From positions 807,017 to 871,016 of the forward strand of contig NZ_JXOJ01000002.1 in the NCBI RefSeq assembly GCF_001017125.1: a DNA stretch of 64,000 nucleotides, given 5' to 3'. Each line of letters starts with the position of its first letter. Positions within the stretch are counted from its first letter, which is position 1. Of the stretch, positions 4,927 through 64,000 are shown one piece after another. The stretch comes from Methanoculleus sediminis (GTDB lineage Archaea > Halobacteriota > Methanomicrobia > Methanomicrobiales > Methanoculleaceae). The position numbers and the translations under genes were made by a program. The notes beneath the pieces were generated by a model. It saw only the letters and a program-made list of their open reading frames with translations. It was not told the origin of the DNA and did not search any database.

Positions 4927-5730
4927 TTACGCCTCCTCCCTCCCGCGGCAGCCGCACGGGCTCATCGGGATGCAGACCATCCGCTCCACCTCTTCGACGT
5001 AGCGGACACAGACGTCGATCCCGTAGGCCTCCCGCAGGTTCTCCTTCGTGATGACGTCCTCGGCCGGTCCCCGTGCGATCAGCCTGCCGTTCTCGAGGAT
5101 GGCGACCGTGTGCGAGAGCAGAAAACCGTGGTCCGGGAAGTGGGTGCTCATCAGGATGGCGATCCCGTCGGCGGCCAGCCGGTCGATCGTCGCGATCACC
5201 TTCATCTGGTTGCCGATATCGAGGTGCGACGTCGGTTCGTCGAGGATGAGCAGCGACGGCTCCTGGGCAAGAGCGCGGGCAATCATCACCATCTGCGACT
5301 CCCCGCCCGATATCTCGGAGATACACTTGTCCTGGAGGTGCGCTATCCCGATCCGCGCAAACGCCTCCTCCACCTTCTCGCAGTCCTCCTCCCCCGGGAC
5401 CGAGAAGGTCGGGATGTGGGGGGCTCTCCCCATGAGGGCGAAATCGAACGCCCTGAACGGAAAGACGGCGCGGTGCGTCTGGGGAACGTAGCCGATCTCG
5501 CGTGCGATCTCGTCGGGCCGCATGCCGGCGACCCGGCGGCCGTTGATCTCCACCTCCCCCTTCTGGAGCGTGAGGATGTTTAAGATGCACTTGATCAGGG
5601 TCGATTTTCCGGTCCCGTTCCTCCCGAGGAGGGAGAGGACCTCTCCTCTCCGGAGGGAGAGGGAGATCTCTTCGAACTGTTTTGTGATGCCGTCGTACGA
5701 GAACGAGGCGTTGTTGACGTTCAGGATCAT
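4927..5730 (-). CDS. ABC transporter ATPase (FecE/BtuD-type)
   Basis: 267 residues; the ATG at 5730 overlaps the permease stop (ATGA), so the two are translationally coupled. Walker A is GRNGTGKST, the Q-loop YVPQTH, the signature SGGESQMVMIARAL, Walker B LLILDEPTSHLD, and the switch His is in STHFPD. This is the cytoplasmic ATPase of an iron-siderophore, heme or cobalamin importer. The C-terminus ends in a short Cys/His-poor tail with CGCRGREEA. It is convergent with the radical SAM gene, with only 27 bases between stops. Confidence 0.92.
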   Translation of the reverse strand: MILNVNNASFSYDGITKQFEEISLSLRRGEVLSLLGRNGTGKSTLIKCILNILTLQKGEVEINGRRVAGMRPDEIAREIGYVPQTHRAVFPFRAFDFALMGRAPHIPTFSVPGEEDCEKVEEAFARIGIAHLQDKCISEISGGESQMVMIARALAQEPSLLILDEPTSHLDIGNQMKVIATIDRLAADGIAILMSTHFPDHGFLLSHTVAILENGRLIARGPAEDVITKENLREAYGIDVCVRYVEEVERMVCIPMSPCGCRGREEA

Positions 5731-6911
5731 GATATCCAGCCTACCTTTTTGCGTGTCAGGAGGTATGCAAAGAATGGCGCACCGACGAGCGACGTCAGGA
5801 TGCCGAGCGGGATCTCGGCTGCGGTCAGGGTTCTTGCGATGTCGTCGACGACGAGAAGGAACGATGCCCCGAGGATGGCTGATACGGGGATGAGCTTGCG
5901 GAAATCCGGGCCGACGAGCATCCTTCCTATGTGGGGGACGACGAGGCCGACCCAGCCGATGATCCCGCTGATACAGACCGCGGAGGCGGTGATGACCGTC
6001 GAGGCGATGATGAGCACCACGGTCATCCTCTTTGTGTCCACCCCGAGCGCCCGCGCCTCCTCTTCGCCGACCGCGAGGAGGTTGATCCGCCACCTGACGA
6101 GGTAAAGGCAGAGAGCGCCGAGAAGGATCGGCGGGGCAACCGCGATGACGTCGGCGTTCGAGACCGTAGAGAGGCTTCCCATCAGCCAGAAGACTATCGC
6201 GGGCAGGGTGTCGTACGGGTCGGCGATGTACTTGGTGAGGGATATGAAGGCGGAGAAGAGTGATCCAACGATGATCCCCCCGAGGACGAGGACGAGGGTC
6301 GAGCCCTTGCCGACGGCCCGACCGATGCCGTAGGTGACGGCGACCGCGAGGATCCCGAAGAAGAAGGCGGAGATCTGGATAACCATGGGGTTGCCGGAGA
6401 GGAGGATCCCGACGGCTGCCCCGAACCCTGCTCCGGCGGAGACGCCGAGGATGTCGGGCGAGACGAGGGGGTTTTTGAAGAGGCCCTGGAACGAGGCGCC
6501 GGCGATGGCGAGCCCTCCCCCGACGAGCATCGCCGCTATCAACCGCGGGAGCCTGATCCGGAAGACGACCGTCTCTTCCGATGCTCCCCAGGTCTGCTCG
6601 AAGGAGGGGAGGAGGACCGGGTGACCGGAGACGGCCGAGAGGAGGGACGACGCGCCGTCGAGGAACCCGTTCGCCGTTCCGACGATGAGGACCCGGAAGG
6701 TCTCCACCGGGTCCATCATGTATCTCCCGAAGAAGAGGGAGAAGAAGAAGAGGGCGACCGGGAGGAGATAGATGGCCTTCTCTGCCGGGATCAGCCGGAG
6801 AACGGCTTCGTGAACCGGCGTGCCGTCCCGAAAGACCGATCGCAAAAGACCGATCGCAGCGTTCCGGGGCTCCTGCCCGATCTCCATGATCGGCTCTTTC
6901 CTATGGGTCAT
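5727..6911 (-). CDS. FecCD-family transmembrane permease
   Basis: 394 residues, the usual size for BtuC/FecCD permeases plus about 50 extra N-terminal residues. It has roughly ten membrane helices and the family marks RLPRLIAAMLVGGGLAIAGA, FKNPLVSPDILGVSAGAGFG, GLVVPHIGRMLVGPD and EIPLGILTSLVGAPFFAYLL. It would form the channel for a metal-chelate or corrinoid taken from the lipoprotein at 1429. Start at ATG 6911; an ATG at 6887 is an alternative. An AT-rich promoter region with an inverted repeat lies upstream. Confidence 0.92.
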   Translation of the reverse strand: MTHRKEPIMEIGQEPRNAAIGLLRSVFRDGTPVHEAVLRLIPAEKAIYLLPVALFFFSLFFGRYMMDPVETFRVLIVGTANGFLDGASSLLSAVSGHPVLLPSFEQTWGASEETVVFRIRLPRLIAAMLVGGGLAIAGASFQGLFKNPLVSPDILGVSAGAGFGAAVGILLSGNPMVIQISAFFFGILAVAVTYGIGRAVGKGSTLVLVLGGIIVGSLFSAFISLTKYIADPYDTLPAIVFWLMGSLSTVSNADVIAVAPPILLGALCLYLVRWRINLLAVGEEEARALGVDTKRMTVVLIIASTVITASAVCISGIIGWVGLVVPHIGRMLVGPDFRKLIPVSAILGASFLLVVDDIARTLTAAEIPLGILTSLVGAPFFAYLLTRKKVGWIS

Positions 6912-37529: not shown

Positions 37530-38669
37530 ATGAAACCACTCAACATTTTGATCATATCTCTCCTCTGTGCCGCGATAGCGTTCATTGCACCGGCCAGCGC
37601 CGCCCCTGCGGACGTCACCGTGATCTCCTCGTCGCTCGATCCCACGGTCCTGATGAAGGGGGACACCGGGACGCTGACGGTGGTCGTCCAGAACAACGGC
37701 GCCGACCCGGTCGCGATCCGGAACGCCCGACTCTACGGCAGCGGGGTCGTGCCGCTGAGCGACCCCTACCCCTCGGTCGGGGAGCTCGGCGCCGGGAACA
37801 GCAAGACGTTCACCTTCACCGTCCGGGCGGACGGGGGCGAGGGGACGTTCTACCCCCAGTTCGTGCTCGACTTCCGGGACGCCGGCAGTCTGCGCTACCC
37901 GATCCCGGTGCAGGTCGAGAACACCCCGCTCAGCGCGTCGGTGATCGCGAAACCTGACGCCTTCGCCGAGTCGCGGACCGCCGACATCACCGTCCGGGTG
38001 GGCAACCCGCGGCCGAACGCCGCCTCCGGCGTCCAGGTGATCCCGCAGGGGAGCGGTTTTACCGTCACCCCGACCGGCGGGTTCATCGGGGCGCTCGCCC
38101 CTGACGCGTCCGGGATGGTCACGTTCAACCTGACCCCCGCCGCGGAGACGGACGTCACGTTCCAGGTGGTCTGGCGCAACGGGATCAACACCCACACCGC
38201 CGACCTTGTGCTGCCGGTTGCGTTCGGCGAGGACAAGAAGCAGGCCGACCCCGTCATCACCAACGTCGAGGTCACGCCCATCGCCGGCGGCTACCGGATC
38301 GTGGGCGATGTCATGAACGCCGGCCTCGAATCCGCCCGGTCGGTGCTCGTCACCCCCGGGTCGCCCGCGACGCCCATCGATCCCTTCCGGGTCTATGTGG
38401 TCGGGACGCTGGACCCCGACGACATCTCGTCGTTCGAGGTGACGTTTAAGGCCGACGCCGGCGTGGAGGAGATCCCGGTCATCGTCGAGTACCGGGACGA
38501 CGACGGCAACCGCTACACCGCGACGACGCCGGTCGGACTCGGCGGCACGACGGCCGCACCGCTCGAGGAGCCGGAGGACGGCGGGTTCCCGGTCGCCGGG
38601 CTCCTCGTCGTCGTGCTCATCGCGCTTGGGGTCGCCGGAGCAATCTACTACTCGTGGAAGCGGACGTAA
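37530..38669 (+). CDS. Exported CARDB/COG1361-like surface protein with C-terminal anchor
   Basis: 379 residues from ATG 37530, 1 base after the previous stop. A signal peptide (NILIISLLCAAIAFIAPASA) is followed by three Ig-like, CARDB-type beta domains (VTVISSSLDPTVLMKGDTGTL, ASVIAKPDAFAESRTADITV, VITNVEVTPIAGGYRIVG), then a C-terminal helix (AGLLVVVLIALGVAGAIYY) with a basic end. The partner of a MacB-like ABC pair downstream; in archaea such trios are frequent and may act as an export or envelope-stress machine. Anchored outside the membrane. Confidence 0.82.
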   Translation: MKPLNILIISLLCAAIAFIAPASAAPADVTVISSSLDPTVLMKGDTGTLTVVVQNNGADPVAIRNARLYGSGVVPLSDPYPSVGELGAGNSKTFTFTVRADGGEGTFYPQFVLDFRDAGSLRYPIPVQVENTPLSASVIAKPDAFAESRTADITVRVGNPRPNAASGVQVIPQGSGFTVTPTGGFIGALAPDASGMVTFNLTPAAETDVTFQVVWRNGINTHTADLVLPVAFGEDKKQADPVITNVEVTPIAGGYRIVGDVMNAGLESARSVLVTPGSPATPIDPFRVYVVGTLDPDDISSFEVTFKADAGVEEIPVIVEYRDDDGNRYTATTPVGLGGTTAAPLEEPEDGGFPVAGLLVVVLIALGVAGAIYYSWKRT

Positions 38670-38674
38670 CGACG

Positions 38675-39346
38675 ATGCCGGTCATCAGTTTCGAGAACGT
38701 GACGAAGGTCTACCCCCTCCCGGCGGGCGACGTCGTGGCGCTTGCCGGGGTGGATCTCGCCATCGAGGAGGGGGAGTTCGTCCTGATCATGGGCCCGTCG
38801 GGGTCGGGGAAGTCGACGCTCTTGAATATCATGGGCTCGCTCGACGTCCCGACCTCGGGCGAGGTCATGATCGCCGAAAAGAGGATCGGCGGGATGGACG
38901 ACGACGACCTTACCCTTCTGCGGCGCGACCATATCGGCTTCGTCTTCCAGCAGTTCAACCTGATCCCGCTCTTATCGGTGGTCGAGAACGTCGAGTATCC
39001 CCTGATCCTGAAAGGCCGGCAGAACGGCACCCGGGAACGGGCCGAAGAAGTCCTCCAGGCGGTCGGGATCGAGAAGACCCATTTCACCCACAAGCCCGGC
39101 GAACTCTCCGGCGGGCAGCAGCAGCGGGTCGCCATCGCCCGGGCGCTCGTGAACGATCCCGCCTTCCTCCTCTGCGACGAACCGACCGGGAACCTGGACT
39201 CGAAGACCGGGACCGCCATCATGACCCTCCTTGATAGGATGAACCGCGAGGAGGGCAAGACCGTCGTCATGGTCACCCACGACCCCAGGATGACCGAGTA
39301 TGCCGACCGGACGATCCGGCTCGTCGACGGGAGGGTGGAAGAATGA
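38675..39346 (+). CDS. MacB/LolD-type ABC transporter ATPase
   Basis: 223 residues from ATG 38675; GTG at 38654 within the upstream gene is less likely. Walker A GPSGSGKST, Q-loop FVFQQFNLIPLLSVVENV, signature LSGGQQQRVAIARAL, Walker B FLLCDEPTGNLD, and switch VTHDPRMTEYADRTI. The Q-loop and LSGGQ text are those of the MacB/LolD/FtsE group. Its stop overlaps the permease start (ATGA), so it pairs with the FtsX-type protein next door. Confidence 0.93.
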   Translation: MPVISFENVTKVYPLPAGDVVALAGVDLAIEEGEFVLIMGPSGSGKSTLLNIMGSLDVPTSGEVMIAEKRIGGMDDDDLTLLRRDHIGFVFQQFNLIPLLSVVENVEYPLILKGRQNGTRERAEEVLQAVGIEKTHFTHKPGELSGGQQQRVAIARALVNDPAFLLCDEPTGNLDSKTGTAIMTLLDRMNREEGKTVVMVTHDPRMTEYADRTIRLVDGRVEE

Positions 39347-53649: not shown

Positions 53650-54183
53650 TCACCCCTGGACGGGGGCGGCAGTCAGGCGGAGAGCGGCGTAGAGTATGGT
53701 TGCGGCGAGCACGCACTCGAGGTAGAACCCGAAGACCCCGAAGGCGGAGAAGAGCAGGCTATACGCGGGGGTGCCCGCCGTGAGGGGGAGGGCGCTCATG
53801 ATCCCGTCGAAGAGCCACCCGAATACCGGCACGCTGTCCGCGACGAGCGGGGGGGCGTCGCCCCGTTCCCACTGGCCCGGGTTTATCAGGAGGGCGAAGA
53901 CGAACGGAACTGAGGCTGCAACGGCGACGAGCATCGCCTGCCGCTCTCTCCGGACCGGGACGGCGCCCGGGATGAGCGGGAGGGGCGTCGCGGCTCCCGC
54001 GACCGCAAGGGTGACCATCACGAGGACGAAGACGGGGAGGACGAACGGTGGCGCCGGTCCGACGATCCCGGAGACGGTTCTGGCGGTACCCGCCCAGATC
54101 ACGCATGCGACGACCGCAACGAGCGGGGGGATGGCCGGCGAGAACCGGCTCCGGGGGGGCGAGGCGATGATCTTACCTGACAT
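53650..54183 (-). CDS. Lineage-specific five-helix membrane protein
   Basis: 177 residues from ATG 54183; the frame is open to 54270. Five hydrophobic segments: PPLVAVVACVIWAGTARTV, PPFVLPVFVLVMVTLAVAGA, AMLVAVAASVPFVFALLI, a loop with VFGWLFDGIMSALPL, and LLFSAFGVFGFYLECVLAATILY. No family recognised. Preceded 68 bases upstream by one copy of the 36-bp promoter-like motif (54251-54286), as are four other genes in this island. Confidence 0.65.
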   Translation of the reverse strand: MSGKIIASPPRSRFSPAIPPLVAVVACVIWAGTARTVSGIVGPAPPFVLPVFVLVMVTLAVAGAATPLPLIPGAVPVRRERQAMLVAVAASVPFVFALLINPGQWERGDAPPLVADSVPVFGWLFDGIMSALPLTAGTPAYSLLFSAFGVFGFYLECVLAATILYAALRLTAAPVQG

Positions 54184-54250
54184 ACTGCACCGTTCTCGAC
54201 ACGGTTCGGCTCCCGTGTCCTGGAAATCTGCGGGAAATGTCGACGTCCCT

Positions 54251-54286
54251 CTATAAACGATTTCTGTCACGATCGTCTACACGTCG
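54251..54286 (-). promoter_or_regulatory. Island motif copy A (36 bp), upstream of the 54183 gene
   Basis: On the minus strand: CGACGTGTAGA, then CGATCGT, then GACAGAAATCGTTTATAG. The 3' half ends in a TATA-like GTTTATAG placed 68 bases before the ATG at 54183. The same arrangement with exactly 7 bases between halves occurs at 55198, 56624, 57945 and 59777. Confidence 0.75.
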
Positions 54287-54365
54287 GGGCGCTTCAATCC
54301 GTTTTGTTCCCGGAAAGGCGGTAGAAGGGGTATCTCGATGCGGCTCTTCCACCGCGGCAGAACGG

Positions 54366-54566
54366 TCAGTCCGGCTGCTTCTCCCGGCACCGTTTGCTCA
54401 CGATCTGCACGATGAGGCTGCCAAACAGCAGGATGAAGAACAGGTACCGGGCAAGGGCGCCGGGCCGGCCGTGCAGGATTATATCCTGGTAGTAGTTGAC
54501 CGCGAGGACAGCTACGGCAAGGGCGAGGAGCAGTTTCCACAGGAGCGACAGGTAGTTGCAGTTCAT
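54366..54566 (-). CDS. Small two-helix membrane protein
   Basis: 66 residues from ATG 54566, 12 bases after the upstream gene stop, so probably in one transcript with it. Two hydrophobic segments (LLWKLLLALAVAVLAVNYYQ and ARYLFFILLFGSLIVQIVS) and a basic/Cys tail (KRCREKQPD). No family recognised. Confidence 0.6.
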   Translation of the reverse strand: MNCNYLSLLWKLLLALAVAVLAVNYYQDIILHGRPGALARYLFFILLFGSLIVQIVSKRCREKQPD

Positions 54567-54578
54567 GTTCGCCGCCGG

Positions 54579-55127
54579 TTATACGATTCCCACCGCGCGA
54601 TGGAGGTAGTACGCGAGCACCACGCCTGTCGCAAGAGCGACGAAGACGGCCCGGTCCTTCGACTTCTCGTGGAAAATCCATACGCCGAAGTAGGTCGAGA
54701 GGCAGAACCAGGCGAGGAGCAGCAGGCCGGCAAACGGAACCTCCAGGAGGACCACCCAGGAGAAGAGGATGAGCGGCGAGAGGGCGTAGACCGCCGATTT
54801 CATCGTCTGCTCGAACTCCCGGTGGACGTCGACGAAGAGCAGGAAGAAGTGCTCGACGAGGCTGACGGCGAGGAGGGCGACGGCTCCGGTTATCAGGCCC
54901 TGCGTCAGGGTGACAAGGGTGCCTGCCGCGATAAACCAGATCCGGTGCGTTCCGTCAATCTTCGCCGCCTCTCCCGTAAGGAGGGGCAGTACCATGAATA
55001 GGACCGATGCGGCGGCGACGATCGCGAAGTAGAATATGAGGTCGTCGCGCAGCGGTTTTTCGTTGAGTCTCTGGAAGACCCGCCGGGGGCCGGTGATGAT
55101 TGTTTCCGGTGATATATCTCCTGGCAT
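54579..55127 (-). CDS. Membrane protein, Yip1-like
   Basis: 182 residues from ATG 55127 (GGGAAGAAGAG upstream); the frame continues to 55151. Five helices in a Yip1-like order: LIFYFAIVAAASVLFMVLPLL, IWFIAAGTLVTLTQGLITGAVALLAV, then a FFLLFVDVHREFEQTMKSAVYALSP loop and two more. The assignment to Yip1 is weak. First gene of an operon with the 66-residue protein; motif copy B lies 71 bases upstream. Confidence 0.65.
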   Translation of the reverse strand: MPGDISPETIITGPRRVFQRLNEKPLRDDLIFYFAIVAAASVLFMVLPLLTGEAAKIDGTHRIWFIAAGTLVTLTQGLITGAVALLAVSLVEHFFLLFVDVHREFEQTMKSAVYALSPLILFSWVVLLEVPFAGLLLLAWFCLSTYFGVWIFHEKSKDRAVFVALATGVVLAYYLHRAVGIV

Positions 55128-55197
55128 GCTCTTCTTCCCTGGACGGCGCACCTGCCTGTCTGGTTCCGGTATCGATGAAGGAGAAATCGATGTACTC

Positions 55198-55233
55198 CTA
55201 TAAACGTTCTCTGTCTGAATCGTCTACACGTCG
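55198..55233 (-). promoter_or_regulatory. Island motif copy B (36 bp), upstream of the 55127 gene
   Basis: On the minus strand: CGACGTGTAGA, CGATTCA, GACAGAGAACGTTTATAG. Only 2 of the last 18 bases differ from copy A; distance to the ATG is 71 bases. The remaining bases to 55379 show no gene. Confidence 0.75.
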
Positions 55234-55379
55234 GGTCACGGTTGGTTGAAGAGAGGCAGCCGGTGCCCGTTATCGCTCTGACACTATGCAGGGCCGGGAG
55301 GTGGTATAGCCCCCATTCATCCTTCGTCCGGGTGAGGGGAGCTTGTTTTTACCGATGGGCGGCCTGAAAATCGTTGGTA

Positions 55380-55868
55380 TCAGCGGTGGAGTACTGCCGG
55401 GAGGTTCAATCGCCTCTCATGGACGGTCGATGTGAGCTCGAACCGCCCCTCTCCGGGTTCAAACGGGGAGCAGGATACAGTCAACGTTCCGGAGTTGATC
55501 CCTTCTGATTCCTGAGTTGTGCTGTGAGGTATCCCCGCAGGGTCCCAGACCGTTAGGGTGAAGGTGGCTTTCTTTGCGCTGCTTGGCTTATTTTCTTGGT
55601 CACTTCTCCACGAGACAGTGAAGGTGCTTGCTTCCATTCCCGTCTCGATCAAGGAGATGATGTTCGAAGAAGTTGTGTTTGCCCCGAAGTCGGCCGACCC
55701 CTCGCCAAGGAAGAAAACACCACGTGAGTTACTGTCCTGAAAGACGATTTTGCCGCTGGACGTAGTGGTATTAACGGCAACATCCTCCTGGGCGGATGAT
55801 ATCACATATGCCAGAGCACCAACAAGACCTATCATCAGGATGATGATGCACGCTATTTTCCTGTTCAA
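55380..55868 (-). CDS. Exported protein, paralogue of the 56436 gene
   Basis: 162 residues. Signal peptide or anchor (ACIIILMIGLVGALAYVISSA), then a beta-rich domain: FTVSWRSDQENKPSSAKKATFTLTVWDPAGIPHSTTQESEG and SGTLTVSCSPFEPGEGRFELTSTV. It lines up with the 56436 protein (RLTVYDALGAAHTTQKR and SGTISVSFNSQGSGDAQYEL), so the two arose by duplication. Likely secreted or membrane-anchored outside. A TATA-like TTTTTAAAG lies just before the start. No family recognised. Confidence 0.65.
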   Translation of the reverse strand: MNRKIACIIILMIGLVGALAYVISSAQEDVAVNTTTSSGKIVFQDSNSRGVFFLGEGSADFGANTTSSNIISLIETGMEASTFTVSWRSDQENKPSSAKKATFTLTVWDPAGIPHSTTQESEGINSGTLTVSCSPFEPGEGRFELTSTVHERRLNLPAVLHR

Positions 55869-55917
55869 AAGGTCATCACTCCGCTTTAAAAATAGTGCAT
55901 CCTAGAGATGTACCTGT

Positions 55918-56436
55918 TTAGACATAATCGAGGTCGCCAATGTAGGGGCCACCTATCGCCGTCGTCGTATCGAACCAGTTGTGCGTCTCGCACCAGAGTT
56001 CGTACTGGGCATCGCCGCTGCCCTGTGAATTGAAGCTCACGCTGATGGTGCCGCTGGTCGCCCAGTCGACCCGCTTTTGGGTAGTGTGCGCCGCGCCCAG
56101 AGCATCATAGACCGTCAGGCGGTAGATCGCTCCCTGACCGTCGTTGTCCACATCGTTAACATTACTGTATGTTGCTGTGAAGGTGTTCTGCCCGGCTGGA
56201 GCAGTGACTGATCCCACACCGGCCACGCTTGCTGTGTCGCCGTCGCCATCTGTCGACATGCTTCCCAGGTGTATTGTGGCCCGAGCCCCGGCATCATCTG
56301 TGCCCACCATAGGGGGTATTTCTCCGACTTCGATGTTCTCCTGATCAGCCTGGGCTGCAGAAGCAACCCCGGCAGATACTGATACAAATAGCATCAGTAC
56401 TGCCAAAACCGGCAGAAATCTGTTTCGGCTTTCCAT
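55918..56436 (-). CDS. Secreted beta-rich protein
   Basis: 172 residues with a clear signal peptide ending ASA (FLPVLAVLMLFVSVSAGVASA), then an acidic Thr/Gly-rich domain (IHLGSMSTDGDGDTASVAG, NTFTATYSNVNDVDNDGQG) and the part shared with the neighbour (YRLTVYDALGAAHTTQKR, SGTISVSFNSQGSG). A good ribosome site (GGAGG) and a TATA-like ACTTATAGG at about 56480 precede it. Motif copy E lies further up at 56624. Unknown function; surface role likely. Confidence 0.7.
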   Translation of the reverse strand: MESRNRFLPVLAVLMLFVSVSAGVASAAQADQENIEVGEIPPMVGTDDAGARATIHLGSMSTDGDGDTASVAGVGSVTAPAGQNTFTATYSNVNDVDNDGQGAIYRLTVYDALGAAHTTQKRVDWATSGTISVSFNSQGSGDAQYELWCETHNWFDTTTAIGGPYIGDLDYV

Positions 56437-56783
56437 TTTCTGTTTCCTCCATTATTACAGCACCGGAGGAGAGAGAACGTACCTATAAGTAAAGGTAATA
56501 ACAACCCTCCTTTTGCCTCCGGGCGTGCGGGGTCCATCATCCTGTCGTGAACCGCGGATGTGTGGCCCCGCGACTCATGCGAATGCCCGATTCCGGCACC
56601 CGCACTGCAACCTCAACCTCGGGCTATTTACCTTTTCTCTCACTTCTCTCTACATGTTCGCTGTCTTCTTCGGAAAGCGGAAGGCTGGATACATCCTGCA
56701 CGGCCCACGGAACCGGAGAGGGTTCCGGCCGGAACCGGGAGTGCCTGGGCTCCATACTCGGTCCTGCTCCCCTCTGGGCGTGC
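56437..56783. other. Gap before the secreted-protein gene, with island motif
   Basis: No convincing gene in 347 bases. It holds the proximal promoter of the 56436 gene (about 56470-56490) and island motif copy E (56624-56659). The right end is the stop side of the ABC-2 permease gene. Confidence 0.55.
56624..56659 (-). promoter_or_regulatory. Island motif copy E (36 bp), most diverged
   Basis: On the minus strand: GAACATGTAGA, GAGAAGT, GAGAGAAAAGGTAAATAG. The 3' half matches copy C in all but two positions and the spacing is the same as in the others. It is 188 bases before the ATG at 56436, further than in copies A, B and D. Confidence 0.6.
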
Positions 56784-57746
56784 TTACCGGATATCCATCC
56801 GCATGAACCGCGTGTACGCGACGGCGAAGAAGGCGACGGGGTAGATGGTCAGGGCCGCAACGCTCGACCATATCTCGCCGAGCGTATCTTCAAGGGTTGC
56901 CCCCGGGGAGTTGCTGATCCCCTGGATGAGGGCGTTGACGGCCATCTGCGGCGAGAAGAGGTTTGCAGCGCTCTCGATCATCTTCATCTGGTCGAGGTAC
57001 GCCGTAATCTCCACCTGGTAACCTTCCGATTGGGTATCCCCGCCGTATGCGGCGGGGTCGGGCTTTTCCATCATGAGGGCCGTGCCGATATTCGCGGTGG
57101 CGAAGGGGGCCAGGAAGACGAGGAGGACGAAGACAACCACCGAGAGGAGCAGGGCGCTGCCGCTCTCCCGGCAGAGGGTGGAGAGGGCGAGCGCGATGGA
57201 GAAGAACGTCACGAGGAAGAGGAGGGTGACGCCGGCATAGGTCAGGATCATCCACAGATCGCCGGAGGCGGGCACGATCGAGAAGACGAGGAGCAGCGCG
57301 GTGGATATAGCGAGCACGCTCCCGACGACGAGGGCCAGCAGCGCAACGCCCCCGAGCGCCTTGCCGTTGATGATCTCGTCCCGGTAGACCGGGTGGGAGA
57401 GCAGGCTTTTGAGCGACCGGGACTCCTTCTCCTTCGAGACCAGGTCGAACCCGAGCGCAAGCGCAAGGAGGCCCCCGTAGGAGACCAGCGTCCGGAACAC
57501 CGAGGAGTAGATGCCCTCGACCGGCGGTTTTGCGGGCATCATCCCGGCCGGTCCGTCATTCTGGTTATCCATCGTCGCCAGTTGCTGGGCATACCGGTCC
57601 AGGTCTCTCTCGTAGCTCCCGACCCCGCTGTAGGTTCCCACCAGGGCGATGGCGAGGAACAGGGCGAGGATCACCAGGAACCGCCAACCCGTGATCTGGT
57701 CGGCAAACTCTTTTTGGGCCACGGTGAAGACCCGTTCCGCCGTCAT
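56784..57746 (-). CDS. ABC-2 type permease without a nearby ATPase
   Basis: 320 residues, NosY/ABC-2 type: an N-terminal QKEFADQITGWRFLVILALFLAIALVG, a long outer loop (about 40-85), then LALALGFDLVSKEKESRSLKSLLSHPVYRDEIINGK, the mark of this permease group, and four more helices. The final TYPVAFFAVAYTRFMRMDI is usual. No ATPase lies within this island, so the partner is elsewhere or the protein works with another ABC subunit. Motif copy C lies 199 bases upstream. Confidence 0.85.
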   Translation of the reverse strand: MTAERVFTVAQKEFADQITGWRFLVILALFLAIALVGTYSGVGSYERDLDRYAQQLATMDNQNDGPAGMMPAKPPVEGIYSSVFRTLVSYGGLLALALGFDLVSKEKESRSLKSLLSHPVYRDEIINGKALGGVALLALVVGSVLAISTALLLVFSIVPASGDLWMILTYAGVTLLFLVTFFSIALALSTLCRESGSALLLSVVVFVLLVFLAPFATANIGTALMMEKPDPAAYGGDTQSEGYQVEITAYLDQMKMIESAANLFSPQMAVNALIQGISNSPGATLEDTLGEIWSSVAALTIYPVAFFAVAYTRFMRMDIR

Positions 57747-58117
57747 GTGTTATCACCGGTCAGTGTACATACATCTATCTTCATGCTCGTTCTCCGTCCG
57801 TGGTCGCAAGAGTACCGCAGGTCCGTGACTATACGCGGTATCGCCCCTTAAGTGACAACCGAGGTTTTTCCGCCGCCCGGAACAGGCAAGGGTTAATCAG
57901 ATGCACTTCCACGGGCGTTGCCGTCTTGAGACTGGATCGTTACTCCATATACCTTTTCTCTCACATTCCTCTACACGTCGGGGCGTGAGAGGAGTGGATC
58001 CGACCAGTGGCCGTGGTAAACCGACGATACTCTGCACCGGTCACTTTTCGGAAACTTCAAGCCCGGCCGGTCCCATACTGACTTTAACCACGCCGGTTCC
58101 ATCGGCCCGGAACTACC
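57747..58117. other. Gap between divergent genes, with island motif C
   Basis: No gene seen in 371 bases between the permease (minus) and the 58118 gene (plus). It contains motif copy C (57945-57980), oriented towards the permease, and a TATA-like CTTTAACC near 58083 that may serve the plus-strand gene. Confidence 0.55.
57945..57980 (-). promoter_or_regulatory. Island motif copy C (36 bp), upstream of the ABC-2 permease
   Basis: On the minus strand: CGACGTGTAGA, GGAATGT, GAGAGAAAAGGTATATGG. The first half is identical to A, B and D; the second is near-identical to E. The TATA-like GTATATGG is 199 bases before the ATG at 57746. Confidence 0.7.
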
Positions 58118-58801
58118 ATGAGACGACCGATCCTTGCCGTTATCGTCGGAGTAATAACTGTCTACGCCTGCATGCACTTCTTCGTCCTGCCGGAGGCCCC
58201 GGACGTCACCCGTATCGAGAATATCACCCATCTTGAGTCCCCGGCATACCATCCGGCCATCCTGGACCTCTGGGAGATCGCCGTCGATAGCACCGGCGTC
58301 GAGAACGAGTCGGCGAGACTGCTGCGACTGGAGACCAACATCGCCGGGGACGGCGCGATTCGGGTGATATGGTTCTACTTCTACGGTGATAAGGACGGTG
58401 AACAGCACGGCTACGAGGCGTATGTGGGGCCGGGCGGAATGGTATCGGCTAAATCGCAGAAGTTCAATTTTTCCGTGCAGGGGGTGCACCCCCTCGAACT
58501 CTTGCGGGAGGTCGACGCTATCGCCCTGGAGGATATTCCCTCCCGGGACCGGGGTATGAGGCTTCTTGTGAGCGTGAACGCGTACGGGGACCACTACAAC
58601 GAGACCCGGGGAAGGCTCTACGAGGTCTCGGATGGAATATTCCGCCCGGTGAAAGAAGTGACGTTCGGCCCGGACGCGCGCTGGTACACCATCACGATCA
58701 CTCCCCACCGGAGCCCGGGATCCCCGCCATCTCCAGAAGAGGTTCTTATTGCGTTCACCCGGCAGGATCTCGCAGCGGCCGAGTCCGTAGCCTACGGATA
58801 G
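58118..58801 (+). CDS. Exported or anchored hypothetical protein
   Basis: 227 residues: an N-terminal helix (RPILAVIVGVITVYACMHFF) acting as signal or anchor, then an outer domain with IAGDGAIRVIWFYFYGDKDGEQHGYEAYVG and RGMRLLVSVNAYGDHYNETRG. No catalytic motif seen and no family recognised. Only plus-strand gene in the left part of this island. Confidence 0.65.
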   Translation: MRRPILAVIVGVITVYACMHFFVLPEAPDVTRIENITHLESPAYHPAILDLWEIAVDSTGVENESARLLRLETNIAGDGAIRVIWFYFYGDKDGEQHGYEAYVGPGGMVSAKSQKFNFSVQGVHPLELLREVDAIALEDIPSRDRGMRLLVSVNAYGDHYNETRGRLYEVSDGIFRPVKEVTFGPDARWYTITITPHRSPGSPPSPEEVLIAFTRQDLAAAESVAYG

Positions 58802-58859
58802 GTGAGCGTCGAGAACCGGGACTCGTTCATCGTCTCCGGCCCAACCGCCCCCGGGTGAC

Positions 58860-59594
58860 CTAACCGGTTGCGTCTGCGCCCCTGTCCGCCCGGGATACGA
58901 TATCCCGCCGGGGGAAATAGCGCACCATCCTCCCGTCCCTCTCGCTCCGTACGGCACCGTCCCGGATGAGCAGCGCCATATGCCAGGTCACTGATGCGCC
59001 GGAGATCCCGAGCGCGGATACGACCTCTTTTCGCGCCATTCCCGGGTCCTGTGCAAGGAGATCGAGGATCTGCTTTCGTGTCCCGTTGATGGGATAGCCT
59101 TCTCCCTCACGGGCCGTCCTGCCGTTCGTGTAATACCGTAACTGCCCGTGATCGCGCTCAGCTACTATCTGTCCGGTCTCGCAGAGGGTTGCAAGGTGGT
59201 ACCGGAGCGTTCCAATGTTAACCCCCAGCCTGCGTGAGAGGGAAGCGTGGTTGATCCCGGGGTTCTCCCGGATGCAGAGGTATGCTGCACGGCGGGTGTC
59301 GTGTTCAAGAACGTTCTTTCTGGAGATCCTCCTCTGGCCAAGAATAAGCCATACGGTTACTGATATGAGGAACTGGACCGGGAGGAAGAGCAGGGGTGCG
59401 GTCATGAAGACGAAGTCGAGCAGGAGCAGTTTGGGCGGCACGTTCCAGATATATAGTGGGGCCGGATCGTCCGGTATCGTCTCCGGAAACTCCCCCTCAC
59501 TTGATATGGTGCCAGTAGCGCTCCCCGGGGCGATTATAAGCAGGAGGGCGATAAGGAGCAGTGCGCCCCTTGCGAGAGGGAGTTGATGCCGCAT
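58860..59594 (-). CDS. Membrane-anchored regulator with two winged-helix domains
   Basis: 244 residues. A signal-like helix (ALLLIALLLIIAPGSATG), a short outer part, a second helix (FVFMTAPLLFLPVQFLISVTVWLIL), then two winged-helix domains: NPGINHASLSRRLGVNIGTLRYHLATLCETGQI and DPGMARKEVVSALGISGASVTWHMALLIRDGAV. The DNA-binding part is thus in the cytoplasm, anchored to the membrane, and the outer loop may sense the surface. Common layout in Methanomicrobiales. A candidate controller of the five island motifs, by location only. Its own promoter lacks the motif. Confidence 0.8.
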   Translation of the reverse strand: MRHQLPLARGALLLIALLLIIAPGSATGTISSEGEFPETIPDDPAPLYIWNVPPKLLLLDFVFMTAPLLFLPVQFLISVTVWLILGQRRISRKNVLEHDTRRAAYLCIRENPGINHASLSRRLGVNIGTLRYHLATLCETGQIVAERDHGQLRYYTNGRTAREGEGYPINGTRKQILDLLAQDPGMARKEVVSALGISGASVTWHMALLIRDGAVRSERDGRMVRYFPRRDIVSRADRGADATG

Positions 59595-59776
59595 TAAAAA
59601 GATCAGGTGACCGGGAGTATAAAAACGGTGCTATTCTGTTATCCCCCCATCGCACACCTCTGCGTGCCTTCGGGTAGCCGGTCCCCTCCACAGTCTGGGC
59701 CCGGTATCGACCGATGCAGCAAACGTCCCTGATTGACTGCGGCGAATTTTCCGGAGCAAAACGAACGGATCCGGCT

Positions 59777-59812
59777 CGACGTGTAGAGGGGCTGGACAGA
59801 AATCGTTTATAG
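59777..59812 (+). promoter_or_regulatory. Island motif copy D (36 bp), upstream of the 59880 gene
   Basis: On the plus strand: CGACGTGTAGA, GGGGCTG, GACAGAAATCGTTTATAG. The last 18 bases equal copy A exactly, though the two are 5.5 kb apart and in opposite directions. The end is 68 bases before the ATG at 59880, as in copy A. Confidence 0.75.
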
Positions 59813-59879
59813 GGGAACGTTGAGTTCTCATGCATAGATCCCGGAAGACGGGCCCACCCGGCCGGGCGGTGGTGAGGAG

Positions 59880-60551
59880 ATGGGCGGGCGACGTAACAAT
59901 GCCAAAAAAACCGTACTGAACCTATTGATAGCGGTCACCATCCTTGCCGTGGTGGTCTTCCTGCTCTTCCTTGGTCCTGCATTCGTCTCGACGACCATGC
60001 CGAACGACTCCTATATGATCGAGATCACCGGTCTCTCCGGTCTTGCCGTGAACGGCACCGCCACGGTCATGATCCCGGTCCCGGCGAACGCGAAGGGCGA
60101 GCTGGTGATCTTCGAGGCGTCCAGCGCTCGCCAGCCCGCCGGGTGGCGGACGGCGATCCGGGAGACGCAGTACGGGAAGATGCTCGCGTTCACGACGACG
60201 GAGGACTACGCGCAGGATATCTTCGTACCATCCGGCGAGTTCGAGACGAAGGAAGAGCCGCGGCTGCTCGTGCCGGTCCTCGCAACCCCGGACAACGCGA
60301 GCGTCGCCGAGTTCACCCGGAGCTCGGGCGGTACCTACACCACGGTCGGCTTTCTCGACGGCTTCGTCCCGCCGGAGAACGCCACATCGATCTCGTTCGA
60401 CCTTGAGTACCAGGGCGGCGGCGGTGTGAAACATCTGATCAAAGAGAATATCTGGACGGCGACGGTGAATACGGCTGTTCCGAGCACAACGTCGGGATTT
60501 GTTCCGGTTCCGGCAGGATACCATGTTATTGCCGGGGGTATCAATCTATAA
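59880..60551 (+). CDS. Anchored exported hypothetical protein
   Basis: 223 residues with a single N-terminal helix (VLNLLIAVTILAVVVFLLFLG) and an outer beta-rich domain: YMIEITGLSGLAVNGTATVMIPVPANAKGELVIF, then LLVPVLATPDNASVAEF. Several N-x-S/T sites fit a glycosylated surface protein. The stop overlaps the start of the next gene (ATG at 60551), so the two are cotranscribed from motif D. No family recognised. Confidence 0.7.
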   Translation: MGGRRNNAKKTVLNLLIAVTILAVVVFLLFLGPAFVSTTMPNDSYMIEITGLSGLAVNGTATVMIPVPANAKGELVIFEASSARQPAGWRTAIRETQYGKMLAFTTTEDYAQDIFVPSGEFETKEEPRLLVPVLATPDNASVAEFTRSSGGTYTTVGFLDGFVPPENATSISFDLEYQGGGGVKHLIKENIWTATVNTAVPSTTSGFVPVPAGYHVIAGGINL

Positions 60552-61756
60552 TGACCGACTCCGGGAGAGAAGATCTCCATCGATTGAAACGTATGCTCGT
60601 TGACGGCAAAACTCATGCAGCCCGTAAAATGGCGATATCTCTTGCTCTTTTATCCCTCATCGTCCTCACTGCCGTATCGGGGTGCCTCTCGATCGACGCT
60701 GTCGCCGACCGTCATGCTCTCTCCGTCACCCGAACCGACGCCGCCGGTACCGAGATCTGGCACACCGCTTTTGATGGAGGGGGCGACGAATACGGCACCG
60801 TCCTGTTGCCGGTTTCGGACGGCGGCCTGCTTGTCGGGGGGTCGGTCAAACAATCTCCGGGAAGCGAAGAGCACGCCCTGCTGCTCAAGATCGCGGAGGA
60901 CGGCCGGATCGAGTGAAACCGGTCGTTCCCGACACGGTATGGCGTTGAGGCAGTCGTCTCCCACCCTGACGGCAGTTTCACCGCAGGGACGGGTGACGGG
61001 TCTCTCTTCCGGGTGGCCGGCGACGGGACACCCGTCTGGAGCAGCCCGGTTTCGGAGTCCGTGCCTGGAGTCTCCGGTCTGCCGGATGGAGGTATCATGG
61101 CTGCAGGGAGCCAGCACGAGAGGGATGTCTGGGTGGCGGTCGTGAACGATACCGGGTCGCTGCTCCGGGAAGAGACCTACCCGGATCTCGGACGGGGGCG
61201 GGCTCTCGAGGTCGCTTCGGCGTCGGACGGGGGGTGCATCGTTGCAGGGACGACGGATAGCCACCCGCTCTGGGTGATGCGGCTCGATGGAGAGGGCAAC
61301 GTCATCTGGACCCGCACCTTCGAGGAAGGCCCTGAGTTTATCGGAGTCATGCTTCACCATGTATATTCGGTGCGAGAGAAGCCGGACGGTAGCGTGGAAC
61401 TGCTCTATAAGGTCGGCCGGGCCCTGAAAGGAGAGGAAGCCGGAGGATCGGTCACGGTCGACCGAACCCTCGCCCGGGACGGCTCTGATGTGAGCGTAAC
61501 GGAGTTCTATATGCCCTGCCCGGTTGTCCGGGCCTCCGGCGGCGGTTACGCCTGTGCCTCCCTCGAGAGTTCCGAGGGCGACGGTTACACCATGGGGAAC
61601 CATCTCGGGTCGCCGATTCACGTGATGAAATGTGACGATCGCGGTGAGATTGTCCGGGTCAGTACCGGCACGGAGGCGGAGGTGGATATCGTCACGGATA
61701 TCGTGCAGACCCCGGATGGGGGGTTTGCGATTCTTGGTGGGTCTACGAAGACCTGA
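60551..61756 (+). pseudogene. Beta-propeller-like lipoprotein gene with in-frame TGA
   Basis: The frame at 60551 reads a lipoprotein-like start (LALLSLIVLTAVSGCLSI) and propeller-type blades with GGGDEYGTVLLPVSDGGLLVGGS, then stops at TGA 60914-60916 (DGRIE-stop-NRSF). The same frame continues without break to 61756 with more blades (SHPDGSFTAGTGDGSLFRVAG, SASDGGCIVAGTTDSHPL, DGEGNVIWTRTF, TPDGGFAILGGSTKT). The text at the stop matches the IWTRTF type, so the stop is most simply TGG to TGA at a Trp. Either a recent nonsense mutation, readthrough, or a sequencing error. Confidence 0.8.
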
Positions 61757-61811
61757 ACCCTCAAGATCTCGTATGCTCTCCCGATGCCGGCCGCCATCAC
61801 AACCTTTATAG

Positions 61812-61830
61812 TTAGGTCAACCCAAACTAA
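61812..61830 (+). promoter_or_regulatory. 19-bp operator upstream of marR
   Basis: TTAGGTCAACCCAAACTAA, partly palindromic (TTAG...CTAA outer, GGT/AAC inner), directly after a TATA box CTTTATAG (61804-61811) and 12 bases before the ATG at 61843. A matching 19-mer precedes lon at 62284. Confidence 0.65.
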
Positions 61831-61842
61831 TGGGTATCAACC

Positions 61843-62262
61843 ATGGCGGCGAGACATGAGCACCTGTTCGAAGTGTTTGATCGCCTGATCGCCATCAAGA
61901 ACGAATGCTCCTCCGAGATCTTCTCTGAATGCGGGCTTGCCGACGTGACGGTGAAGCAGGTCGCCTACCTGAAGACGATCGACGAGCACGGCGACGTGAC
62001 GTTCAGCGGTCTTGCCGAGATCACCAGGAACTCGAAACCCACCGTGACGGAGATGGTTAATCGGTTCGTCCGGATGGAGTGCGCCTACCGCCAGAAGTCC
62101 CCCGACGACGGGCGGGTCACCTACATCCGGCTGACCGAGAAGGGCCGGATGCTGGCAAACGCCGAGCGGAACGCGCTCCACCGGATGGTCGAGAGGATGG
62201 TGCGGACGCTCGATGAGAACGAAGTGGATCTTCTGGTGGAGATCTTGAAGAAGGTCGGATGA
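61843..62262 (+). CDS. MarR-family transcriptional regulator
   Basis: 139 residues: KQVAYLKTIDEHGDVTFSGLAEITRNSKPTVTEMVNRFVRM is the helix-turn-helix, followed by the wing QKSPDDGRVTYIRLTEKGR and a C-terminal dimer helix. MarR proteins bind as dimers to short palindromes. Both this gene and the downstream lon carry the same 19-bp site, so it probably represses itself and lon until a ligand or stress signal releases it. A run of seven T follows its stop. Confidence 0.9.
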   Translation: MAARHEHLFEVFDRLIAIKNECSSEIFSECGLADVTVKQVAYLKTIDEHGDVTFSGLAEITRNSKPTVTEMVNRFVRMECAYRQKSPDDGRVTYIRLTEKGRMLANAERNALHRMVERMVRTLDENEVDLLVEILKKVG

Positions 62263-62269: not shown

Positions 62270-62283
62270 GGCCGGCCATATTG

Positions 62284-62302
62284 TTAGGTAAATGCGAACT
62301 AA
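62284..62302 (+). promoter_or_regulatory. 19-bp operator upstream of lon
   Basis: TTAGGTAAATGCGAACTAA, equal to the marR site in 14 of 19 positions with the same outer arms, after a TATA-like CATATTG (62277-62283) and 16 bases before the ATG at 62319. Confidence 0.65.
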
Positions 62303-62318
62303 ACAATCCGGAGTCACC

Positions 62319-64000
62319 ATGCACTCACCAGAACCAGACACCAGCAGAGAGCACATTGTCATACCGCTCTTCGAGACCGTGGTCTACCCCGAGACCCGGA
62401 CGAAGCTCCAGGTCGAGACGGCCGTCGGAGAAGCGCTGATCGCCGCCATGAAGAGCGACGGGTCTGCATACGCGGTCGGGCTGACCGCAAAGGGCGGGGC
62501 AGAGTCCCCCGGGGAACCGGCCGACGCGCTCTACCCGACCGGGAACCTTCTTGCGATCGCGCACGTACAGCCTGCAGACGACGGCTACCTCGTCTTTGCT
62601 CACGCAACGCGCCGGGTGAAGGCCGTAACCCTCTCGGAGAAGGGCGGGCAGTACTACGCCGTCTGCGAACCGCTCCCGGACGTGCCGGACCTCGACGAGG
62701 ATGCCCGGGCAGAGATGCTCGGGCGCGTCAAAGCGGCCGTCCATGAGATCAGCGGCAACTTCCAGGGCTCCGAGCAGTTCACCCGGCCCGTCGACAGGAT
62801 GGAGTCCGTCGACCAGATCATGGGTTTCGTCATGCCCTTCCTGCCGATCGATGTTGCCGAGAAGCAGTCGCTCCTCGAGATCGTCTCCGTCCGGGAGCGC
62901 TACACCGCGTTCCTCCGGATCCTGGTGAACCTGAACGAGAGCATCAACCTCCGGATCGAGGTGGCGAAGAAGGCTTCCGAGAAGGTCGGGAAGGCGAACC
63001 GCGAAGCGATGCTCCGCGAGCAGCTCCGGGTGATCCAGGAGGAGCTCAACGGCTGCGACGGCTCGTCGGGCGAGGAGAACTACCGGGAGCGGATCGAGCG
63101 CTCGACGATGCCCGAGGAGGTGCGCAAGAAGGCCTTCGCCGAACTGAAGAAACTCGAGTCGGGCGGGAGCCAGCACCACGAGAGCCAGGGGATACGGAAC
63201 TACCTCGACCTCCTGCTCGATCTCCCCTGGACGGTCGAGAAGAAGAGCATCGACATCGAGGAGGCCCGCCGGGTGCTCGAGAGCAACCACAACGGCCTCG
63301 AGAAGGTCAAGGAGCGGATCGTCCAGCATCTCGCGGTCATGAAACTCAAGGAGGAGAAGCAGGGCTCGATCCTCCTCTTCGCCGGCCCGCCCGGGACCGG
63401 GAAGACGAGCCTCGGACGGAGCATCGCCGACGCGCTGGGGAGAGAGTACGTCCGGATCAGCCTCGGCGGCGTCAAGGACGAGGCGGAGATCCGCGGGCAC
63501 CGGCGAACCTACGTCGGGTCGCTCCCCGGCCGGATCATCCAGGGGATGAAGCGTGCGGGGGCGAAGAACCCGGTCTTCATCCTCGACGAGGTCGACAAAC
63601 TCGCCGTCTCGTATTCGGGAGATCCGGCAAGCGCCCTCCTCGAGGTCCTCGACCCCGAGCAGAACAGCACGTTCTCGGACCACTACCTGGAGGTTCCCTA
63701 CGACCTCTCGGACGTGCTCTTCATCGCGACCGCAAACAGCCTCGCGACGATCCCGGCGCCGCTCCTCGACCGGATGGAGCTCATCGAGATCTCGGGCTAC
63801 ACGAAGAACGAGAAGTTCGCGATCGCGAAAGATCACCTCCTGCCGGAGACCCTCGAGGAGCACGGGCTGACCGCGGATCACCTCCGCATCGAAGATGAGG
63901 CCGTCTCGGCGATCATCGACCGCTACACCCGGGAAGCGGGCGTCCGGACGCTCAAGAAGCAGCTTGCCCGGATCGCCCGGCATGTCTCCGCGAAGGTCGT
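62319..64000 (+). CDS. lon: ATP-dependent protease LonA, 3' end outside window
   Basis: 560 residues present, running off the window. A soluble bacterial-type LonA: substrate-binding N-domain (IVIPLFETVVYPETRTKLQVE, VPDLDEDARAEMLGRVKAAV), coiled part, then the AAA+ module with NHNGLEKVKERIVQHLAVMKL, Walker A GPPGTGKTS (about 357), VKDEAEIRGHRRTYVGSLPG, Walker B VFILDEVDK and the sensor ATANSLATIP. No membrane helix, unlike the LonB usual in archaea. The peptidase Ser/Lys part is beyond the window. Degrades damaged or regulatory proteins. Confidence 0.93.
   Translation, partial: MHSPEPDTSREHIVIPLFETVVYPETRTKLQVETAVGEALIAAMKSDGSAYAVGLTAKGGAESPGEPADALYPTGNLLAIAHVQPADDGYLVFAHATRRVKAVTLSEKGGQYYAVCEPLPDVPDLDEDARAEMLGRVKAAVHEISGNFQGSEQFTRPVDRMESVDQIMGFVMPFLPIDVAEKQSLLEIVSVRERYTAFLRILVNLNESINLRIEVAKKASEKVGKANREAMLREQLRVIQEELNGCDGSSGEENYRERIERSTMPEEVRKKAFAELKKLESGGSQHHESQGIRNYLDLLLDLPWTVEKKSIDIEEARRVLESNHNGLEKVKERIVQHLAVMKLKEEKQGSILLFAGPPGTGKTSLGRSIADALGREYVRISLGGVKDEAEIRGHRRTYVGSLPGRIIQGMKRAGAKNPVFILDEVDKLAVSYSGDPASALLEVLDPEQNSTFSDHYLEVPYDLSDVLFIATANSLATIPAPLLDRMELIEISGYTKNEKFAIAKDHLLPETLEEHGLTADHLRIEDEAVSAIIDRYTREAGVRTLKKQLARIARHVSAKV

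Follow-up and report, generated by a model that had tools for sequence, protein, structure and literature searches.

Do the membrane and exported proteins encoded at positions 53650-61756 of a 64,000-nucleotide stretch of Methanoculleus sediminis DNA (G000:C8:807017-871016; the window, here, is the whole of this analysed stretch) form one system under common control? The genome is 2.49 Mb and 99.97% complete, and the GC content of the island is 0.604 compared with 0.652 in the rest of the window. A sequence-only reading had proposed a lineage-specific island of genes with no clear family, tied together by shared promoter motifs, and had named scattering of the genes over unrelated contexts as the observation that would speak against it. 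The open reading frames were present as described, nearly all products are membrane or exported proteins, and scattering was not seen; 13 orthologous loci keep the genes together, although some of these loci have lost genes. The locus is also present in M. chikugoensis. On the one hand, the gene set is specific at about the genus level. On the other hand, the module of regulator, partner and promoter recurs in other families and is not confined to this lineage.

Most of the genes are indeed without a clear family, and Pfam and NCBIfam gave nothing above the cut-off for those at 53650, 54366, 55380, 55918, 58118 and 59880 or for the piece at 61013, but a Yip1-family membrane protein (PF04893, 2.8e-13) was found at 54579-55151 on the minus strand, which reaches 20 bits with the YknW model NF052650, below the cut-off of 110. 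Rfam found no known RNAs in the island. The family-less 177-aa membrane protein at 53650-54183 (minus) starts at the ATG at 54183, because the start at 54270 first assigned to it falls within a promoter, and the 66-aa membrane protein at 54366-54566 (minus) is conserved: of the 13 orthologous loci (L084-L096), 9 have it. Two exported proteins, D (55380-55868, minus) and E (55918-56436, minus), are paralogues as had been noted, matching each other at 27% identity over 153 aa (E about 6e-9); they probably form an operon, and a third copy of the family lies at G000:C8:394828-395097. The structure model of E is a beta-sandwich of nine strands (pLDDT 69.9). A sequence search of the PDB with E and D gave no match below E 0.04, and we rejected an assignment of function from the fold of E, its Foldseek matches being weak (Ena2A fibre, E 2e-4, TM 0.18; CBM16, TM 0.32).

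Protein F (56784-57746, minus) is an ABC-2 permease (ABC2_membrane_2, PF12679, 2.3e-44; 152 bits, gathering score 27.2). It had been described as a permease with no ATPase nearby, and an ATPase model found none in the island, the nearest ABC ATPase frames in the window being 4927-6900 and 38450-39346; the island therefore encodes no complete ABC transporter with an ATPase in the same operon. The remaining genes encode an exported protein with an N-terminal anchor, G (58118-58801, plus), which is without a box of its own, the membrane-anchored regulator H (58860-59594, minus), a protein with a strong N-terminal hydrophobic segment that anchors it to the membrane, I (59880-60551, plus), and J (60551-61756, plus), a delta-60-repeat-like gene of lipoprotein type. 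J is broken by an in-frame TGA at 60914-60916, with no internal stop in seven usable comparators and G003 (L090, whose end had been guessed, was left out). At the neighbouring genes, GTTAGGT-N7-AACTAA is common to the promoters of a MarR-type gene (61843; 61800-61845) and the next gene, for a Lon protease (62280-62325), and this shared motif suggests that the MarR-type protein may control itself and Lon.

Considering the promoters, five transcription units of the island, on both strands, carry one bipartite box, CGACGTGTAGA-N7-[G/C]A[C/G]AGAAA, directly 5' of TATA, which bears out the shared motifs proposed earlier. Promoters 1 (CGACGTGTAGACGATCGTGACAGAAATCGTTTATAG; 54249-54286), 2 (55196-55233), 3 (56622-56659) and 4 (57943-57980) are on the minus strand and promoter 5 (59777-59814) on the plus strand. 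With a 38-column matrix they score 59.8, 51.4, 38.9, 54.7 and 49.1, respectively, whereas the next-best position in the window scores 8.4 and the reversed window at most 6.5. Promoter 4 lies about 200 nt ahead of the permease gene and is near-identical in several orthologous loci. The exact CGACGTGTAGA occurs four times in the window, every time inside the island, and positions 1-53000 hold no box site. Because the 11-mer alone, with two mismatches allowed, is no commoner than chance would give (19 sites, 20.4 expected), we take the exact 11-mer and the full bipartite form as the evidence for the box. The full form is rare: a search of the whole genome that tolerated three mismatches returned 13 sites, and the reversed control none. 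Twelve of the 13 look like promoters with TATA; the site at C9:113932, which has no TATA, was discounted. When the pattern was changed slightly, this genome again yielded 13 sites, with two matches in the control. A further weaker site, outside the three-mismatch pattern, stands before an exported 236-aa protein (L021, 8397, minus). A perfect dyad, TGT-N11-ACA, was rejected as a general rule, being present in 69/98 group-1, 27/29 group-2 and 8/9 G043 sites but in 0/24 group-4 sites. Single-linkage grouping of site types lumped most group-1 sites and gave no usable non-redundant count. Searches of one open literature library listed nothing published about this box or, for Methanoculleus, about this regulator.

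The genes that follow the box are nearly all exported, membrane or ABC-transporter genes. When the first gene after the box was chosen mechanically, it had a membrane or signal segment at 172 of 192 sites in seven groups, orthologous sites being non-independent, compared with 12 of 42 background open reading frames; in the Methanoculleus sediminis genome alone the count was 12 of 14. Elsewhere in the genome, boxes precede a paralogue of the 58118 gene with small anchored proteins (L017, 5927 on), a PGF-CTERM protein (L017, 8467-9558), a DUF4367 lipoprotein with a small anchored protein (L018) and exported proteins (L019 and L020). The box in L021 leads into an operon of an ABC ATPase, an ABC-2 permease 39% identical to F and an exported protein with an NPCBM domain; the box-bearing ATPase and permease operon is located at G000:C12.

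The candidate reader of the box is H. It has two winged helices, one matching PF24266 (5.1e-19, 68.6 bits; gathering score 31) and one HTH_20 (46.1 bits; 27), which places it among the double winged-helix proteins. The matches lie at residues 99-222 of 244, and the hydrophobic anchor is N-terminal; read by eye, the sequence would start with a signal-like segment, followed by a short stretch on the outside, a single membrane span and then both winged helices in the cytoplasm. Of 61 genomes examined, 45 have homologues of H, and close named relatives are from Methanoculleus. A same-strand box lies upstream of the H orthologue in 10 of 13 loci and is absent before the H of the window; in these ten loci (L086-L089 and L091-L096) the box, some 300-550 bp ahead of the H frame, has an unusual CTTAAG where TATA would stand. 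Type-II and several out-of-genus H genes adjoin ABC-2 permeases and ATPases instead of G, and E-like exported proteins also stand beside type-II H. Three tandem ABC-2 permeases form a cluster (L023, 890-4141, and L103) with ATPase frames and an exported protein that is a third of the D/E-like kind, and this cluster adjoins another H paralogue (G000:C8:388358-389017).

H is closely linked to G. All 39 G proteins scoring above 250 bits are encoded within 2.5 kb of an H, and G stands beside H in every locus of five groups (14 in group 1, 9 in group 2, 5 in group 3, 9 in group 4 and 2 in G043); it is not beside H in two type-II loci or in 20 out-of-genus loci. At E 1e-6, 52 of the 232 genomes in the class encode a G, and 14 members gave no significant Pfam or PDB match; its structure model (pLDDT 40) was kept out of the fold search. 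Strong G matches led to three fresh genomes of other genera, G068, G096 and G128, in which H was near G in all three and boxes numbered 4, 6 and 9 (loci L166, L167 and L168, the last also with Yip1 and I homologues). Two further loci with H and G held one site (L171) and none (L175), and six loci with a weak G and no H nearby (L169, L170, L172-L174 and L176) held three sites in all.

The box sites cluster at H genes. Seven of the 13 genome sites are no more than 15 kb away from an H gene (expected 0.48, p 1.3e-7), and in G020 the same holds for 16 of 26 (expected 1.7). Within Methanoculleus, all 38 H loci hold sites (170 sites in 659 kb) compared with none of 20 control loci (320 kb), which rules out a generic Methanoculleus promoter. 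In other Methanomicrobiales, 20 H loci hold 30 sites, compared with two in 20 control loci from those genomes; one control locus contains a weak H-like frame of 41 bits, and five of the 20 H loci have no site. Control loci were drawn from the same or sister genomes. Since the matrix was built with examples from groups 1, 2, 4, II and G043, the out-of-genus loci and the three fresh genomes are the fairer test. The box also varies with H. Group-2 loci have the version TGTAAA...GACAGAATTT, group-4 loci TAGACGG-CGGCACAGAAA and G043 TGTAGACGATCTCTACAGAAA, and at separate loci within one genome the version goes with the group of the H paralogue found there. G043, of another family, holds 11 canonical boxes with two H genes among them, and is the sole genome outside family f1 with many canonical boxes among the genomes examined. 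In genomes at least 90% complete, those with the group-1 regulator have a median of 16 sites (n 15) and those without it 9 (n 9; p 0.004), which is only a tendency. In a sister genus, two boxes (G036:C66:25134 and 27484; L162) have no H in the 11.7 kb fetched, and the contig ends just beyond.

From these observations, we consider it rather probable that the island acts as a single unit of control within an envelope regulon, with a tethered H, an outside partner G and dedicated promoters, and H is likely its hub. The shared promoters, the nature of the products and the conserved set of genes favour the common control first suspected here, and linkage and co-variation would assign the regulon to H. 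We infer that H, or an H paralogue, binds the box immediately 5' of BRE/TATA and governs how the genes for exported and membrane proteins are transcribed; a box so placed fits an activator helping TBP/TFB. G would be held in the membrane by its anchor, its domain facing outwards, and act with H as a sensor or antagonist. The predicted outputs are beta-sandwich surface proteins, Yip1, lipoproteins and an ABC-2 export system, for which the permease F may get its ATPase from another locus under the same box, and the paralogous H-G modules would carry their own box versions.

The box might be read instead by another factor, such as a different winged-helix protein or a TFB/TBP variant, with H merely one target of the regulon. 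G003 and G011 lack D/E, the permease, G and H at the island and keep the flanking boxes; in G003 (one contig, 99% complete) these score 60.5, 40.7, 57.5, 58.8 and 59.6. Accordingly, either this H is not the sole factor or its loss is recent. The boxes before most H orthologues and the sites far from any H (only 1 of 15 sites in G003 is near one) also agree with another reader. However, box versions that follow the H paralogue group, and sites in every H locus of the genus and in no control locus, argue against it, as do family genomes without H, which hold 0-3 sites compared with 3-18 in those with H at similar completeness, although the completeness of the former is 80-89% and they may form a single clade. 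We therefore regard another reader as unlikely. A variant of our own reading, in which the canonical box is common to several H paralogues, the H family runs the island jointly and a genome can do without one H-G pair, and in which H may repress rather than activate, comes close to an even prospect: G003 retains three H genes, one of group 4 and two of type II, CACAGAAA is common to group-4 and many canonical sites, and the recognition-helix regions, conserved within groups, are alike across them (NxGTxRYH / SxTWHM). The upstream halves of the box, on the other hand, are clearly unlike between groups. We favour the H family as reader of the box, with overlap between paralogues likely.

Self-protection or export of antimicrobial peptides in the manner of YknWXYZ, by the permease, Yip1 and small exported proteins, would suit the Yip1 protein with its weak YknW match and the permeases, ATPases and E-like proteins beside type-II H. 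It is quite improbable, considering that the YknW score is far below the cut-off, that no toxin-like peptide was identified and that most targets are not transporters. The lower GC content of the island, the loss of the block in G003 and the paralogy of some genes would agree with a loose accessory cluster whose promoters were duplicated with the genes, under no common control. We give this very little credence, since the boxes stand before unrelated genes on both strands and across three contigs and the similarity between promoters peaks in the stretch from box to TATA.

The cluster, the box and the H-G pair suggest a little-known surface-sensing system. Little is known of envelope sensing in archaea, and the membrane-bound transcription factors characterised in them are few. 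In this case, sequence alone yields a promoter code, a likely family of regulators and an outside partner that is conserved, with about a dozen predicted target promoters in this one genome and natural specificity variants for binding tests.

The nearest described kind to H is ArnR/ArnR1 of Sulfolobus acidocaldarius, membrane-bound one-component activators of surface structures (PMC6396743). Both systems have a membrane-bound HTH regulator with a paralogue, boxes 5' of BRE/TATA and surface targets. However, ArnR is described there with one N-terminal HTH, a HAMP-like and sensor part and two C-terminal TM segments, and with paired boxes of TCGAC-N5-GTCGA within -43 to -84, whereas H has an N-terminal anchor and two C-terminal winged helices, a box that differs in the site alignment and abuts BRE, a separate exported partner and many paralogous modules. 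Because domain order, box and partner differ, H is not an ArnR. CsmR (PMC13286277) belongs to the wider background. PF24266 (HTH_HVO_0163_N) is a domain family and no described system, and the one paper found to mention HVO_0163 deals with the lysine acetylome (PMC10294847). In bacteria, the SigW regulon is linked with YknWXYZ. The H system resembles such ECF sigma/anti-sigma responses in its unlinked envelope genes under one box, its outside-facing protein beside the regulator and its Yip1-type and ABC output, but it has no sigma factor and H itself is membrane-anchored; the likeness would be one of logic, not of homology. We offer tentatively, as a possibility that falls short of even, that Methanomicrobiales have an archaeal counterpart of the extracytoplasmic-function response, in which G would gate the activator H and diverging H-G modules would each read their own box abutting BRE/TATA and switch a dispersed envelope regulon.
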